Assembly (NCBI GenBank): GCA_021847425.1
Contig: JAJZRF010000001.1
Location: 1 to 64,000, forward strand
DNA: 64,000 nt
Direction of reading: 5' to 3'
DNA from: Deltaproteobacteria bacterium
Lineage (GTDB): Bacteria > Desulfobacterota > Desulfobulbia > Desulfobulbales > Desulfurivibrionaceae
Numbering within the stretch: position 1 is the first letter of the stretch; every line of letters starts with the position of its first letter. The position numbers were made by a program, and so were the translations under genes. Below the pieces are notes generated by a model, which had not been told where the DNA came from, did no database searches, and saw nothing but the letters and a program-made list of their open reading frames with translations. This document shows positions 1-26,919 of this stretch, piece after piece.

Positions 1-1471
1 CGCGATCCGCCGCTTCCGGCGAGACATGGCCGATACAGGCGCCCTGGGTTCCGCCGCTGAAACGCCCGTCGGTTATCAGGGCCACGCTCTTGCCGAGCCC
101 CATGCCGACAATGGCCGAGGTCGGGGAGAGCATCTCCGGCATGCCGGGCCCGCCCTTGGGGCCGCAGTAGCGGATAACCACCACGTCCCCGGCCTTGATC
201 TTGCCGCCCAGGATGGCACCCTGGGCCTCGTCCTCGGATTCGAACACCCGGGCCGGGCCGCTGTGCTTGAGCATCTCCTCGGCCACCGCCGACTGCTTGA
301 CCACGCAGCCGTCCGGGGCCAGATTCCCGTAGAGCACGGCGATGCCGCCGAAGGGGTGGTACGGTTCATCCACGGGCCGGATGATGTCGGCATCCCGCAC
401 CCGGACCTTTTCCAGATTCTCGCCCAGGGTTTTGCCGGTAACAGTCATGACCTCCAGATTGAGCCCTGCCTCGGTATTGAGCAGTTCGCGCATCACCGCC
501 GGCACTCCGCCGGCCTCGTCAAGCTGTTGCAGGCTGTGCGGCCCGCCGGGAATCAGGCTGCAGAGATGGGGCACCCGCTCGCTCACCTCGTTGAACAGGG
601 CCAGGGGCAGATCCACCCCTGCCTCCCTGGCGATGGCCGGCACATGGAGGACGGTATTGGTGGAGCAGCCCAGGGCCATGTCGATGGCCATGGCATTTTC
701 AAAGGCGGCGCGGGTGGCGATATCCCGGGGACGAATGTCATCGGTCCACAGACGCATCACCGCAATGCCCGCCTCCTTGGCCAGCCTGATCCGGGCAGCA
801 GCCACCGCCGGAATGGTGCCGTTGCCCGGCAGGCCAAGGCCGATGGCCTCGGTGAGGCAGTTCATGGAATTAGCGGTAAACATCCCGGCGCAGGACCCGC
901 AGCCGGGACAGGCATGGTCCTCGAGTTCGGCCAGATCTTCCTCGCTCATGGTCCCGCCCTTCACCCGGCCGACCCCTTCAAACACACTGACCAGGTGCAC
1001 GTCCTTGCCGCGAAAACGCCCGGTGAGCATGGGCCCGCCGCTCACCATGACGGCCGGGATATTGACCCGCAGCATGGCCATGAGCATGCCTGGCGTCACC
1101 TTGTCGCAGTTGGGAATCAGCACCATGGCGTCAAAGGGATGGGCCATGGCCATGATCTCCACCGAATCGGCGATGAGCTCCCGGCTGGCCAGGGAATACT
1201 TCATGCCCTTGTGGTTCATCGCCAGGCCGTCGCAGACGCCGATGGTCCCGAAGGCGATCGGCGTGCCCCCGGCAATGCGGACCCCGGTTTTCACCGCTTC
1301 CAGAATCTTGTCAAGATGGATATGGCCGGGGATGATCTCGTTATGGGCGTGGGCAATGCCGATCAGAGGCCGCTTGATTTCCTCGTCGGTGTAGCCCATG
1401 GCCTTGAGCAGGGAGCGATGCGGCGCCCGCTCCACTCCTTTCCGTATTGCATCACTGCGCATCTTTTTCAT
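1..1471 (-). CDS. ilvD: Dihydroxy-acid dehydratase, 3' end cut by window edge
   Basis: Encodes the Fe-S enzyme that dehydrates 2,3-dihydroxy-isovalerate and -methylvalerate to the 2-keto acids in valine and isoleucine synthesis (cytoplasm). About 490 codons are present of the usual 550-560; the C-terminus lies outside the window. The reverse-strand reading starts [20 protein letters not shown] and contains the family hallmarks [10 protein letters not shown] (first cluster cysteine), [19 protein letters not shown] and [17 protein letters not shown]. The ATG at 1469-1471 was chosen because the conserved N-terminus begins there. The gene points away from the toxin-antitoxin island and has its own promoter. 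Identification is firm. Confidence 0.96.
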
Positions 1472-1524
1472 AGATTCGATTCCCGTCAATTGTCCTGAAT
1501 TGTTCATGCTTTCATCAAAACTTG

Positions 1525-1555
1525 AGAATACTAGCAGGACGCTGCCTGCTGTCAA
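1525..1555 (-). promoter_or_regulatory. Predicted ilvD promoter with dyad in a long spacer
   Basis: On the minus strand TTGACA (1550-1555) and TATTCT (1525-1530) are separated by 19 bases. The spacer, with the last base of the -35 box, holds a perfect dyad AGCAGG-N6-CCTGCT (1533-1550). A 19-base spacer with an internal dyad is the architecture of MerR-family promoters. That a MerR regulator acts here is inference only. Confidence 0.5.
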
Positions 1556-1648
1556 GGCAAAAGTCTCCTGCCCCCGAATTTGGCGAGGTGCTCTCTGGAC
1601 TCCGAAGTATCCTTTCTTGTTGTCTGCTCCTTCCAAAATGATTAAGAT

Positions 1649-1675
1649 TGAACCAAGATTGTTTTTTCTGGTTCA
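1649..1675. promoter_or_regulatory. Inverted repeat before the vapBC-like operon (candidate operator)
   Basis: Perfect 7-base arms TGAACCA (1649-1655) and TGGTTCA (1669-1675) lie just upstream of a near-perfect Shine-Dalgarno AAGGAGG (1677-1683). Antitoxins of this class usually repress their own operon by binding such dyads, so this is the likely autoregulatory site. Confidence 0.45.
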
Positions 1676-1689
1676 GAAGGAGGTTGCCC

Positions 1690-1947
1690 ATGAAATCCAT
1701 CACCATCCACAATCTCGATGATCCGCTGAACACCCTGATTCGCGAAAAGGCAAAAAACGAGGGGATGAGCCTTAACTATACCATAAAAAAACTGCTGGCC
1801 GAAGCCCTTGGCCTCTCGCCCAGGAAGGGGGAGGATCGCGAAAATGATTTCCTTGATCTCTTCGGCGTCTGGTCGGACAAGGAGGCAAGGGAATTCCACA
1901 AACAAGTCAGTGATTTTGAAAAAATCGACCGAGAAGATTGGACGTGA
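1690..1947 (+). CDS. VapB/FitA-type antitoxin
   Basis: 85 residues. The N-terminus MKSITIHNLDDPLNTLIREK reads as a ribbon-helix-helix DNA-binding domain (residues 1-45), and the acidic C-terminal half (KQVSDFEKIDREDW) resembles the toxin-neutralising tail of FitA/VapB antitoxins. The ATG follows AAGGAGG at 7 bases. An upstream in-frame start at 1648 was rejected because it lies inside the inverted repeat and adds a non-conserved leader. The stop overlaps the toxin start by four bases (GTGA), the usual translational coupling of these pairs. Confidence 0.8.
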   Translation: MKSITIHNLDDPLNTLIREKAKNEGMSLNYTIKKLLAEALGLSPRKGEDRENDFLDLFGVWSDKEAREFHKQVSDFEKIDREDWT

Positions 1948-2345
1948 AGAAAATCGTTCTGGACACCAACTGTTACGCCGCGTTTCTGTCCGGTGACGCA
2001 AGGGTATTTGAGGCCCTGGCCGCTGCGGAAATTGTCTTCCTCTCTATTTTTGTTCTGGGTGAGCTTTTCGCCGGCTTCAAAGGCGGCAGCCGGGAGGCTG
2101 CAAACCGTGAACTGCTTGAAAGATTTCTGAAAAAACCCACGGTACAGGTACTGAACGCCACCGCAGAAACCGCCACGGTTTTCGGCCAGCTCAAAGCCGC
2201 CCTCAAAAAGGCGGGAACGCCTCTGCCCATCAACGATGTGTGGATCGCCGCCCATGCGGTTGAGACCGGCGCCACCCTCGTAAGCTACGACAGCCATTTC
2301 GAGAAGATCATCGGACTCAAGATCTGGCAGCCCCGCACCACTTGA
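1944..2345 (+). CDS. VapC-type PIN-domain ribonuclease toxin
   Basis: 133 residues. The PIN domain starts with the metal-binding aspartate in VLDTNCYAAFLSG, then a conserved glutamate in VLGELFAGFKGG, and ends with the paired aspartates of PINDVWIAAHAVETGATLVSYDSHFEKI. All acidic active-site positions expected for a VapC endoribonuclease (cleaves tRNA or rRNA) are present, so the toxin looks functional. GTG at 1944 is preferred because it gives the GTGA overlap with the antitoxin stop; a TTG two codons upstream is possible. Confidence 0.85.
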   Translation: MKKIVLDTNCYAAFLSGDARVFEALAAAEIVFLSIFVLGELFAGFKGGSREAANRELLERFLKKPTVQVLNATAETATVFGQLKAALKKAGTPLPINDVWIAAHAVETGATLVSYDSHFEKIIGLKIWQPRTT

Positions 2346-2435
2346 TTTCACCTGACCAGGCTGAAAAAATAAGGGCGATCTCCCTGGTTTCCACTGTGTT
2401 AGCCTTCAGCAGACCTCCATCACCAAAGGATCGGT

Positions 2436-2633
2436 ATGCCCGACTACATTTCCGATGAACTATTTCATTTCGTAGGGCGCAGTGCGCCGGATGATCACGA
2501 GCACAATTTCGAGGTCTTGCTTCAAGTTATCCGTTCGAAATGCATCTCTAGCAGACCACCGGGAGTTGGGTGGGGAACAACAAGGAGAATGCCGGGGGAT
2601 GTTGCTTTCTATTTTTCTAATTGGCCTCCCTGA
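2436..2633 (+). pseudogene. AbiGi-like N-terminal fragment
   Basis: A 65-codon reading frame with a good ribosome binding site (AAGGATCGGT before ATG). Its first 36 residues (MPDYISDELFHFVGRS...VLLQVIRSKC) resemble, from memory, the N-terminus of AbiGi-type abortive-infection proteins (DYIS-x-L-x-HFVGR followed by a LLKI/LLQV helix). Full members run to about 200 residues. Here the similarity stops near base 2,545, where the sequence changes to a HicA-like reading in another frame, so this is a truncated relic. The family assignment is moderate to weak. Confidence 0.4.
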
Positions 2634-2729
2634 CTATCACAAGCCGTATCCGTCGCCAATACTGAAGCCTTATCAGATTGGCCAAGTGCTGGATGTTTTG
2701 CATCAGGAGGGTTTGCTACGAAAAACACC
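2551..2729 (+). pseudogene. HicA-like toxin remnant
   Basis: In the frame of base 2,551 the translation reads ELGGEQQGECRG, then SIFLIGLPDYHKPYPSP and LKPYQIGQVLDVLHQEG. This matches the C-terminal half of HicA mRNA interferases (LGAE-x-EG-x-GSRV, then FHRPHP, then KPYQV-x-DVRDFLE-x-G). The N-terminal half, including the start, is missing and the frame runs on into hicB without a stop. The position directly before a HicB reading supports the call: hicA normally precedes hicB. Not expected to make a working toxin. Confidence 0.45.
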
Positions 2730-2941
2730 ATGGAATACATGGGCTATACCGCATCGGTTGAATACAGCGATGAAGATGGAATTTTTTCGAAAAGGTGCGG
2801 TTTATTCGTGCGCTGACCAGCTACGAAAGCAGCAACGCCGAAGAGTTGCGCAAAGACTTCCGCGATGGCGTGGATGATTATCTGGCGATGTGCGAGGGAA
2901 AAAACATCCCGCCGGAGCAGCCATTCAAGGACAACCCATAA
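2730..2941 (+). pseudogene. HicB-like antitoxin broken by a one-base deletion
   Basis: ATG at 2730 opens MEYMGYTASVEYSDEDGIF, the typical start of the HicB partial RNase-H fold. The frame then breaks in a run of six T (2782-2787). Adding one T restores FEKVRFIRALTSYESSN, followed by AEELRKDFRDGVDDYLAMCE and KNIPPEQPF, all characteristic of HicB. The restored protein would be about 70 residues and stops right after the PEQPF motif, so the C-terminal DNA-binding helix domain is also missing. A homopolymer sequencing error could explain the frameshift but not the missing C-terminus. Confidence 0.6.
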
Positions 2942-2974
2942 CGCTTGACGTTACATAACCCAATGCGTTATAGT
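2938..2974 (+). promoter_or_regulatory. higBA promoter with overlapping dyad operator
   Basis: TTGACG (2945-2950) and TATAGT (2969-2974) with an 18-base spacer form a good sigma-70 promoter. Perfect 7-base arms ATAACGC (2938-2944) and GCGTTAT (2965-2971) bracket the -35 region and overlap the -10 box. That placement suits repression by HigA. The -10 box ends only five bases before the higB ATG, so the transcript should be nearly leaderless. Confidence 0.6.
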
Positions 2975-2979
2975 CTGTC

Positions 2980-3261
2980 ATGATCCTTGATTTCCACTGC
3001 GCTGAGACGGAAAAGATTTGGCAGGGGGTGGTCTCGCGCCGACTCCCACAAGAGATGCAACAGGTTGCCCTGCGCAAGCTCTTCATGCTCGACAAGGCTC
3101 AGACCCTGGATGACTTGCGCATCCCTCCCGCAAATCGGTTGGAGCCCCTCAAAAATAAGCGCAAGGGGCAACACAGCATCCGCATCAACGATCAGTGGCG
3201 AATCTGCTTTATCTGGACGGAGCGTGGGCCGTCCAGGGTTGAGATCGTGGATTATCACTGA
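2980..3261 (+). CDS. higB: HigB/RelE-type mRNA interferase toxin
   Basis: 93 residues, the usual size. The RelE-fold signatures are present: LPPQ-like start (RRLPQEMQQVALRKLFML), DDLRIPPANRLEPLKN and the C-terminal block GQHSIRINDQWRICFIW with the conserved basic and aromatic residues, ending VEIVDYH. HigB toxins cleave mRNA on the ribosome. No Shine-Dalgarno precedes the ATG and the predicted transcription start is at or next to it, so translation may be leaderless. The antitoxin follows 27 bases downstream in the toxin-first order typical of higBA. Confidence 0.88.
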   Translation: MILDFHCAETEKIWQGVVSRRLPQEMQQVALRKLFMLDKAQTLDDLRIPPANRLEPLKNKRKGQHSIRINDQWRICFIWTERGPSRVEIVDYH

Positions 3262-25132: not shown

Positions 25133-25265
25133 AGGACCAGCTGCTTTTTATTTTCCTGCTCGCCCTGTCGCCAATTCTCGATTACACTCCTGAAATTCAT
25201 TCAGGAGAGACGCTGCAACCCCTGTGCCTCTCCTGTTTTGCCCGTGCAGGAGAATGATAGAAACC

Positions 25266-26078
25266 ATGCCGCCCATCATCACCTTGACCACCGATTTCGG
25301 CCTGCAGGATGAATATGTGGGGGTCATGAAGGGCATCCTTGCCGCACAGGCCCCGCAAGCGCAGCTCGTCGACATCTGCCATCATGTTGCCCCCCAGGAT
25401 ATTTGCCAGGCCTCCTTTCTCCTCCAGGCGGCCGCCCCCTGTTTTCCCGCGGGCACCATCCATCTGGCCGTTGTCGATCCGGGGGTGGGAACCCCGCGAA
25501 AACTCCTGATTCTGCGGGCCATGGACCAGTACTTCGTCGCGCCGGACAACGGGTTGCTCACCCCTTTTCTTGCCGAACCCCTGTTTCAGGCCGCCGTGTT
25601 CATCGACTGCCCGCACCTGTACCGCCAGCCCCTGAGCGCCACCTTTCAGGGGAGGGACATCCTCGCCCCGGTTGCCGCGGCCCTGGCCAATGGCGCAGAC
25701 CTCTCCCGCCTTGGCGCTCAAGCGTTTAAGGAAAATCTTACAAAACTTGCATCCCCCACCTTGCAAATTGACCGGATTCGTGGCAACATAGCCGGGTCCG
25801 TGGTCCATATCGACCACTTCGGCAACCTGACCACGAATGTCCACCAGCGTGATCTTGCCGAACTGACAGCTGATCCGGCTTCCATCCAGGTCGTTCATAA
25901 AAAACGGCACGTGACCGGCTTGGCAGGCGCGTACGCCTCATCGGCGGACGGGCAGATTTTGGCGCTCATCGGCAGCCGCGGCTATCTTGAACTGGCGGCA
26001 ACCAATGACAATGCCGCCCGGATTCTCGGAGCGGAGGTACATGACCCTGTGCGGGTGAGCCGAGGAAGGAAAGCGTAA
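25266..26078 (+). CDS. S-adenosylmethionine hydrolase/hydroxide adenosyltransferase (DUF62)
   Basis: About 270 residues. The family signatures are ITLTTDFGLQDEYVGVMKG at the start, VDICHHVAPQDICQASFLL, HLAVVDPGVGTPRKLL, FVAPDNGLLTPFL, TFQGRDILAPVAAALANG and VVHIDHFGNLTTNV. It splits SAM to adenosine and methionine with hydroxide, related to fluorinases; the biological role is unclear. An in-frame GTG at 25224 and ATG at 25254 precede; ATG at 25266 fits the conserved start, with AGGAG 13 bases upstream. Confidence 0.9.
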   Translation: MPPIITLTTDFGLQDEYVGVMKGILAAQAPQAQLVDICHHVAPQDICQASFLLQAAAPCFPAGTIHLAVVDPGVGTPRKLLILRAMDQYFVAPDNGLLTPFLAEPLFQAAVFIDCPHLYRQPLSATFQGRDILAPVAAALANGADLSRLGAQAFKENLTKLASPTLQIDRIRGNIAGSVVHIDHFGNLTTNVHQRDLAELTADPASIQVVHKKRHVTGLAGAYASSADGQILALIGSRGYLELAATNDNAARILGAEVHDPVRVSRGRKA

Positions 26079-26384
26079 CCCTTTTCCGTTTAGGGGCCGT
26101 GCGAAAACAACTTGTACTATTTTGCCTCGCCTTCCGGCTCGTTATGCCGTTTTGGCAGGACTCGATGTTCAAGTTATTTTTGCTCAACGGCTTACAGGCA
26201 AAACTGCCCGCATGGCTTTGCCGACCGTTCCGAAACAACCCTCGCCGTTGGCACTGCTGTTCTTTTAACCATTTTGCTGCGGCGCCTTAAGCCGTTTAGC
26301 CGTTTCAACGGCAATATAGCATTACGCTCCGGCAGTGACAGCGGAGACGACTTACAGCTTAACTTCAGGTAAGGAACCAGCTCC
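26079..26384. other. Intergenic region, 306 bp, unexplained inverted repeats
   Basis: No convincing gene. The stretch holds several copies of the GCCGTT/AACGGC hexamer pair (for example near 26142, 26188, 26301 and 26310), so a folded RNA or a decayed repeat is possible. Its opening GGGCCGTGCGAAAAC resembles the hairpin after flgH (42892), but the match is short. It should contain the promoter of the arsR-type gene. Confidence 0.3.
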
Positions 26385-26672
26385 ATGCATGACCAACATA
26401 TCGAGGATATCGCCAAGCTCCTCAAGACCATGTCGCACCCCATCCGCCTGAAGATCCTCTGCCTGCTGCAGGACGGAGAACTGACCGTGGGCGATATCCA
26501 CAAAGAGGTGCATACCACCAACGCCAATGTCTCCCAGCATCTCTCCATCCTTCGCAACCAGGGGATAATCGCCTTTCGCAAGGATGCGAACTTCATCTAC
26601 AACCGGATCGCGGAAGGCCGTGTCACCGAGCTGATCAAGACCATGCGGGAACTCTTCTGCCAGATTTCCTGA
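26385..26672 (+). CDS. ArsR-family repressor with SqrR/BigR-like cysteine pair
   Basis: 95 residues. A winged helix with the ArsR recognition block TTNANVSQHLSILRNQGII. The metal-site cysteines of ArsR (ELCVCDL) are absent: the equivalent reads ELTVGDI. Instead, C26 in ILCLLQDGE and C92 in RELFCQIS sit where the persulfide sensors SqrR and BigR carry their two sensing cysteines. The predicted role is a sulfide/persulfide-responsive repressor of the gene 28 bases downstream. The family call is firm; the signal is inference. Confidence 0.85.
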   Translation: MHDQHIEDIAKLLKTMSHPIRLKILCLLQDGELTVGDIHKEVHTTNANVSQHLSILRNQGIIAFRKDANFIYNRIAEGRVTELIKTMRELFCQIS

Positions 26673-26700
26673 TTCCGCACACCACCAAGGAGGTTTCACC

Positions 26701-26919
26701 ATGATCGTCACGGACTGGGTTCATGTTTTTGCCGGCGCTTTCATCCTGATCAGCCTGGCCCTGGGCACCTGGGTACATCCCTACTGGTACTTTTTCACCG
26801 CCTTTGTCGGGGCGAATCTTTTCCAGTACGGCTTCAGCAAATTCTGCCCGCTGGCCATGATCCTCAAAAAACTCGGCGTGCCGGAAAGCCGTTCCGGCAA
26901 GGGCTGCTGCGCCAAATAA
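26701..26919 (+). CDS. DUF2892 (YgaP-type) small membrane protein
   Basis: 72 residues. Two membrane helices (about 6-24 and 29-46), then FSKFCPLAMILKKLGVP, which is the DUF2892 signature with its conserved cysteine, and a C-terminal GKGCCAK. The same domain forms the membrane anchor of the rhodanese YgaP. AAGGAGG lies before the ATG. Its pairing with the two-cysteine ArsR suggests a role in sulfur or persulfide handling. Strong family match. Confidence 0.85.
   Translation: MIVTDWVHVFAGAFILISLALGTWVHPYWYFFTAFVGANLFQYGFSKFCPLAMILKKLGVPESRSGKGCCAK

Follow-up and report, generated by a model that had tools for sequence, protein, structure and literature searches.

A dithiol ArsR repressor and a rhodanese-less YgaP-type membrane protein: a probable persulfide-responsive operon in Desulfobulbales

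A two-gene locus from a sulfate-reducing member of the order Desulfobulbales is best read, by analogy with characterised homologues, as a persulfide-sensing ArsR repressor that would switch an operon encoding a sulfur-handling DUF2892 membrane protein, a full mechanism to which we assign a probability of about 0.65. The window, by which we mean the whole 64,000-nucleotide stretch that was analysed (assembly GCA_021847425.1, contig JAJZRF010000001.1, positions 1 to 64,000), carries both genes on the forward strand. The first, arsR (26385-26672), encodes a 95-aa dithiol winged-helix repressor, recognised by its HTH_5 match, its alignment with BigR, its AlphaFold (AF2) model and the conservation of its cysteines. 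The second (26701-26919) encodes a 72-aa DUF2892 protein, a stand-alone YgaP-type transmembrane (TM) protein recognised by PF11127 and by the YgaP TM domain structure 2mpn. The novelty lies in the order-wide operon with its transporter set, in its operator, and in the compact form being one of two arrangements that recur.

From the stop codon of arsR to the start of DUF2892 there are 28 bp, and purine-rich ribosome-binding-like sequences precede both genes. A sequence-only reading had placed an arsR-DUF2892 pair at 26385-26919; both reading frames are exactly as it described them, strongly conserved and linked. Chance open reading frames are excluded by the conservation of both genes across the order, and a one-off pairing by their order-wide linkage. 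Downstream of the pair, bioD lies on the opposite strand. The upstream neighbour is a SAM hydroxide adenosyltransferase family gene (25224-26078, forward strand; PF01887, 3.1e-52, and PF20257), which lies 5' of arsR in many relatives' loci and is regarded here as a conserved neighbour in part of the order, not as a member of the operon.

ArsR matches the Pfam family HTH_5 (2.5e-15) and has cysteines at residues 26, in α2, and 92, in α5. The closest sequence with a solved structure is BigR (3pqj, 3.7e-18), followed by HlyU, SqrR and others, with YgaV (3cuo) lower. Both cysteines coincide with the known pair in five alignments, to BigR, HlyU (three entries) and SqrR, and the YgaV alignment sets C26 and C92 on YgaV C31 and C98. 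The structure model (mean pLDDT 86.6) retrieves SqrR first in Foldseek, then HlyU and BigR; its residues 1-94 align with BigR 17-110 in VIA-align (Z 16.1, rmsd 1.9, 94 residues) and residues 1-95 superpose on SqrR 16-110 (6o8m). The offsets of these structural alignments set C26 and C92 on C42 and C108 of BigR and on C41 and C107 of SqrR. The fold alone is not diagnostic, because SmtB, CadC and other ArsR proteins obtain structural scores nearly as high.

What, then, separates this repressor from the metal sensors? The cysteine pair is complete in 68 of 70 distinct ArsR relatives (loci up to L171), the two exceptions being L165, whose sequence beyond residue 77 is masked by N, and L153, which has Ser at position 26. 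As had been noted from the sequence, the CXC metal motif is absent from α3, with ELTVGD standing where metal sensors have ELCVCD, and a metal-sensor reading is rejected on this ground; four of the six ArsR paralogues in the same genome (L002, L003, L004, L007) do carry a CVC metal motif. In a tree of 102 ArsR proteins the clade of the order (99/94) joins BigR, YgaV, HlyU and SqrR on a branch whose support (81/80) is moderate in a tree built on few columns, and the six paralogues fall outside this grouping. The NCBIfam BigR equivalog NF040642 scores ArsR at 78.5 bits, below its cut-off of 155. Alignment, fold and tree agree in placing C26 and C92 at the dithiol positions of SqrR and BigR, as had been proposed; a separation too great for cross-linking, the weak point foreseen for that proposal, is not what homology indicates, since the aligned positions cross-link in BigR, SqrR and YgaV. 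ArsR is likely a dithiol repressor of the SqrR/BigR/YgaV/HlyU type. In YgaV a Cys31-Cys98 tetrasulfide forms and sulfide derepresses ygaVP (PMC9774250), and a sequence network places every known ArsR persulfide sensor in a single cluster, marked by the α2/α5 cysteine pair (PMC10509353). Judged by these homologues, ArsR very probably senses persulfides.

The output protein corresponds to YgaP reduced to its transmembrane domain, with the rhodanese domain missing. Its match to PF11127 (YgaP-like_TM) reaches 33.6 bits against a cut-off of 25.3 (4.3e-8) and is the only Pfam match, and the 72-aa frame leaves no room for a rhodanese domain. The sole convincing relative of solved structure is the TM domain of Escherichia coli YgaP (2mpn, 2.3e-5), so that a protein at first taken to be uncharacterised turns out to belong to a known domain and not to a new family. 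Cys49 aligns with E. coli YgaP Cys159, and its column is cysteine in 90 of 90 distinct DUF2892 relatives. The claim of a conserved cysteine followed by a CC tail holds for Cys49 but not for the tail: after the LGVP segment a CC pair occurs in 26 of the 90, a single Cys in 10 and none in 54. The tail is therefore a lineage feature, and it was discarded as a functional core on the same count. The two helices expected from the sequence are indeed predicted (residues 3-25 and 29-57), with Cys49 in the second half of helix 2, in a model of low confidence (pLDDT 61.9, pTM 0.33). An EPR study of YgaP, in which Cys159 is replaced by Ser in a Cys-less construct, suggests that the second helix takes part in binding and exporting thiocyanate (PMC4730233).

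Across Desulfobulbales, DUF2892 is found in 199 of 242 genomes (E<=1e-3) and the present arsR in 178 (E<=1e-15). Among the 150 matches listed per search, 107 genomes have both genes; 93 have them on one contig, the 14 with the genes on different contigs standing outside this set, and in 92 of the 93 arsR is followed by DUF2892 on one strand. The gaps in these 92, again among the matches listed, are below 600 bp in 59, 1.0 kb in one, 2.5-9 kb in 28 and 12-14 kb in four. In most of the loci read, gaps of ~5 kb hold an RND exporter of ~870 aa (MMPL 9.3e-33, HAE3-like), a LolA-like protein (PF17131, 2.9e-55) and a protein of 430 aa with weak resemblance to DUF1302. In gaps of ~3 kb only an RND gene is present out of these three (L083, and also L141, L154 and L169). 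Examples of the set of RND, LolA-like and barrel-like genes between arsR and DUF2892 are seen at L071:2329-7071 and L068:2714-7455. When the lists are compared by eye, an RND gene (E<=1e-150) occurs, among the matches listed, in 24 of the 28 genomes with a gap of 2.5-9 kb and in one of the 59 with an adjacent pair (G233, where it is on another contig). RND matches appear in three of 17 genomes of the window's genus, all of them weaker, and the window's own genome has none at 1e-20. On the ArsR tree the two arrangements require at least eight changes among 63 labelled loci (24 RND, 39 DUF2892; the other six of the 69 have neither gene within 700 bp), a count that does not tell gain from loss. 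Since DUF2892 keeps its place even behind the transporter, it is argued to be part of the repressor's unit. The compact pair is thus the short form of a larger Desulfobulbales operon, one of its two recurrent arrangements.

Of 317 genomes in a phylum set, 92 have a DUF2892 match and 61 a match to the ArsR profile. Twenty-nine loci outside the order were read. None of the 22 high-scoring ones (L222-L243, ~1.5 kb each side; the best DUF2892 match from outside the order, L218, stands outside this set) has an ArsR neighbour of DUF2892; in six of the seven from genomes with both genes (L274-L280), ArsR lies beside or near it. L276 comes from a different family of the phylum; there arsR and DUF2892 share one run of genes (1224-3230) with a true sulfide-quinone reductase (SQR; 4e-169 to 3sz0), and the ArsR lacks the dithiol. 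L274 has arsR, DUF2892 and an RND gene, and L275 has arsR, an SQR-like gene, DUF2892 and an RND gene. Among those seen, only L251 and L252 are dithiol ArsR proteins from outside the order, and in the aligned set the dithiol is absent from L258 and L262, the repressors of arsR-DUF2892 pairs in other families of the phylum. Pairs of this kind exist without the dithiol, so persulfide sensing is not a requirement for the pairing. The association of DUF2892 with ArsR, SQR and RND genes reaches beyond the dithiol sensor. This speaks for a sulfide role of the operon and, at the same time, against the pairing by itself proving persulfide sensing.

Does the repressor act on its own operon? After upstream regions below 100 bp and identical proteins were dropped, 69 loci were left, and the pattern ATTAA-N9-TTAAT with up to two mismatches occurs in 46 of their arsR upstream regions (120 bp), against 11.1 in dinucleotide shuffles; with at most one mismatch it occurs in 21 of 69, against 1.1 expected. 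Of the half-site spacings from 5 to 14, 9 gives the highest count, and 5, 8 and 10 give smaller maxima; in the leaders of several relatives the operator, by eye, follows a TTTACA-like box at promoter distance. For the order, this conserved operator is direct sequence evidence that the repressor would act on its own operon. It differs from ATTC-N8-GAAT, the site described for SqrR and also present within the YgaV footprint; neither the window nor the 21 relative loci scanned contain an exact match to that site. The strict operator pattern yields 60 sites in 48 of the 242 genomes, ~20 of them at arsR promoters (by eye), and none in the window's genome. The ~40 sites away from arsR do not exceed a reversed-pattern control (55, hand count), and no wider regulon is claimed for this reason.

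In the window itself the operator is degenerate: the best match in the 120 bp upstream of arsR has four mismatches, its left half being gone, and comparison with relatives' intergenic regions shows that the leader (26345-26384, forward strand) retains only the right half, CTTAAC. In the window's genus, an operator with up to two mismatches is present in four of 13 sequences. The notion that the repressor controls the DUF2892 gene is thus supported by the operator conserved in relatives and weakened by its state in the window; here we infer control from conservation elsewhere, and control of the pair by ArsR is less certain in the window's genome than in the order. The gap to the previous gene measures 306 bp, against 22-80 bp in several close relatives, and parts of it (26079-26384) recur at seven other places in the genome, at best with 87-89% identity over ~110 bp. 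The dispersed repeat (26088-26297, no strand), between the SAM hydroxide adenosyltransferase gene and arsR, is an interval that joins separate repeat matches. It is possible, if rather doubtful, that the promoter region and one operator half disappeared when a repeat inserted, so that ArsR has lost control in this genome and both genes are constitutive or read from upstream. The four mismatches and the long, repeat-bearing gap would fit such a loss; however, both proteins are intact and conserved, the proximal CTTAAC is kept, two promoter-like sites, one per strand, are left against 0.6 expected, and ArsR proteins can bind imperfect sites. A second candidate operator in the window leader, CTTA-N8-TAAG, was rejected, as the Shine-Dalgarno region forms its right arm, which L011, L017, L021 and L024 have not retained.

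Two further alternatives concern the signal and the output. The dithiol ArsR could mainly answer another signal, such as disulfide stress, hydrophobic toxicants or organometals, with the operon serving toxicant export. The gene set of the relatives would suit this, with an HAE3/MMPL-type RND exporter and a LolA-like protein typical of hydrophobic cargo, and tributyltin was the inducer in the first description of ygaVP (title of Gueune 2008; mentioned in PMC9774250). We nevertheless regard it as unlikely: HlyU, with the same cysteine pair, is reported not to react with H2O2 or GSSG, the characterised members of the ArsR persulfide-sensor cluster answer reactive sulfur (PMC10509353), and in the window's genome the search at 1e-20 found no such exporter. 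Alternatively, DUF2892 may be a structural or assembly membrane peptide that merely shares the operon and has no role with sulfur. The stand-alone DUF2892 gene of Azospira suillum (Dsui_0042, likened here by its annotated domain) is strongly induced in perchlorate-dependent sulfide oxidation, its transcript rising ~10-fold, and yet its deletion is reported to have a minor effect only (PMC5358917). DUF2892 also stands without an arsR neighbour in many genomes, including 23 of the 29 loci examined outside the order. Set against this are the invariance of Cys49 (90 of 90), which is common to YgaP as Cys159, and the order-wide linkage to arsR that persists even with a transporter between, and we hold a protein without a sulfur role to be a minority prospect.

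The preferred reading, a persulfide switch, would work as follows. ArsR would be a winged-helix repressor of the SqrR/BigR/YgaV/HlyU type, by analogy a dimer, in which rising cellular persulfides or polysulfides would form a sulfur bridge between Cys26 and Cys92 within one subunit; as its homologues suggest, the cross-linked protein would leave its own promoter and the operon would be turned on. The DUF2892 gene is presumably co-transcribed with arsR, and its product, a predicted two-helix inner-membrane protein with Cys49 probably towards the cytoplasm, would most likely act at the membrane as an acceptor or relay for sulfane sulfur, or for a small sulfur anion. In this scheme, the sensing of persulfides and what DUF2892 does are the steps that we infer. 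In many members of the order the repressor also precedes the RND exporter, often with the LolA-like and outer-membrane proteins, and the fuller output would resemble an envelope or export response to sulfide stress; in the window's genus it would consist of the repressor and the small membrane protein only. A bolder version, improbable as it stands, would extend this to all Desulfobulbales: a persulfide-sensing ArsR would control an envelope response (RND exporter, LolA-like carrier, outer-membrane barrel and rhodanese-less YgaP thiol protein) that exports or shields lipid-phase polysulfur in sulfide producers, with several lineages, the window's included, having only the sensor and the membrane thiol protein.

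The host had been presumed to metabolise sulfur, and the presumption holds, because its genome encodes dissimilatory sulfite reductase (dsrA, 577.7 bits against a cut-off of 392.85). No close SQR was found in the genome, whose assembly is 81% complete (best 1e-4), and no sulfide-oxidising gene adjoins the pair.

The pair would work like ygaVP of E. coli and is best described as a rhodanese-less variant with a repressor of the persulfide-sensor type. In both, a dithiol ArsR is directly followed by a YgaP-type TM domain, Cys26/92 corresponding to Cys31/98 and Cys49 to Cys159, and ygaVP is repressed by YgaV and induced by sulfide (PMC9774250). Differently to the window's protein, YgaP is a membrane rhodanese, and the window's relatives, unlike E. 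coli, hold an RND exporter, in many cases together with LolA-like and outer-membrane genes, between the two. SqrR (Rhodobacter), BigR (Xylella, Acinetobacter) and HlyU (Vibrio) share the ArsR fold and the α2/α5 cysteine pair at the same positions, although identity to those with solved structures is only ~30-35%; SoxR and sHdrR (Hyphomicrobium) share fold and pair as described by their authors. The usual targets of SqrR/BigR-type sensors are SQR, persulfide dioxygenase, rhodanese, sox and shdr genes. None of these stands beside the window's pair, where the repressor's neighbour is the YgaP-type TM protein only.

Literature searches, judged by the titles listed, gave nothing on persulfide sensing in Desulfobulbales; in the searches made, the term "YgaP family" was not found, ArsR, sulfide quinone and YgaP occurred nowhere together, and DUF2892 appeared in few papers. 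With a conserved operator, an invariant cysteine pair and an invariant membrane cysteine, the operon is a compact and testable model in which to ask how bacteria that make sulfide perceive it, and it bears on the function of a YgaP membrane domain that has no rhodanese attached.

Several loci depart from the common layout. Two close relatives, L044 (genome G118) and L056 (genome G018), keep the dithiol arsR, and in neither genome did the search find a DUF2892 match. In L134, L138 and L150, DUF2892 occurs without arsR and is convergent to a set of genes that by eye look like a NiFe hydrogenase or sulfhydrogenase. L131 and L133 have, in a row, an RND-like gene (~900 aa), DUF2892 and a thioredoxin-reductase-like gene, without a dithiol ArsR. 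Finally, at L070:5627-7268 an SQR-like flavoprotein gene is followed directly by the gene of a different ArsR that lacks the cysteine pair, close to the RND gene.
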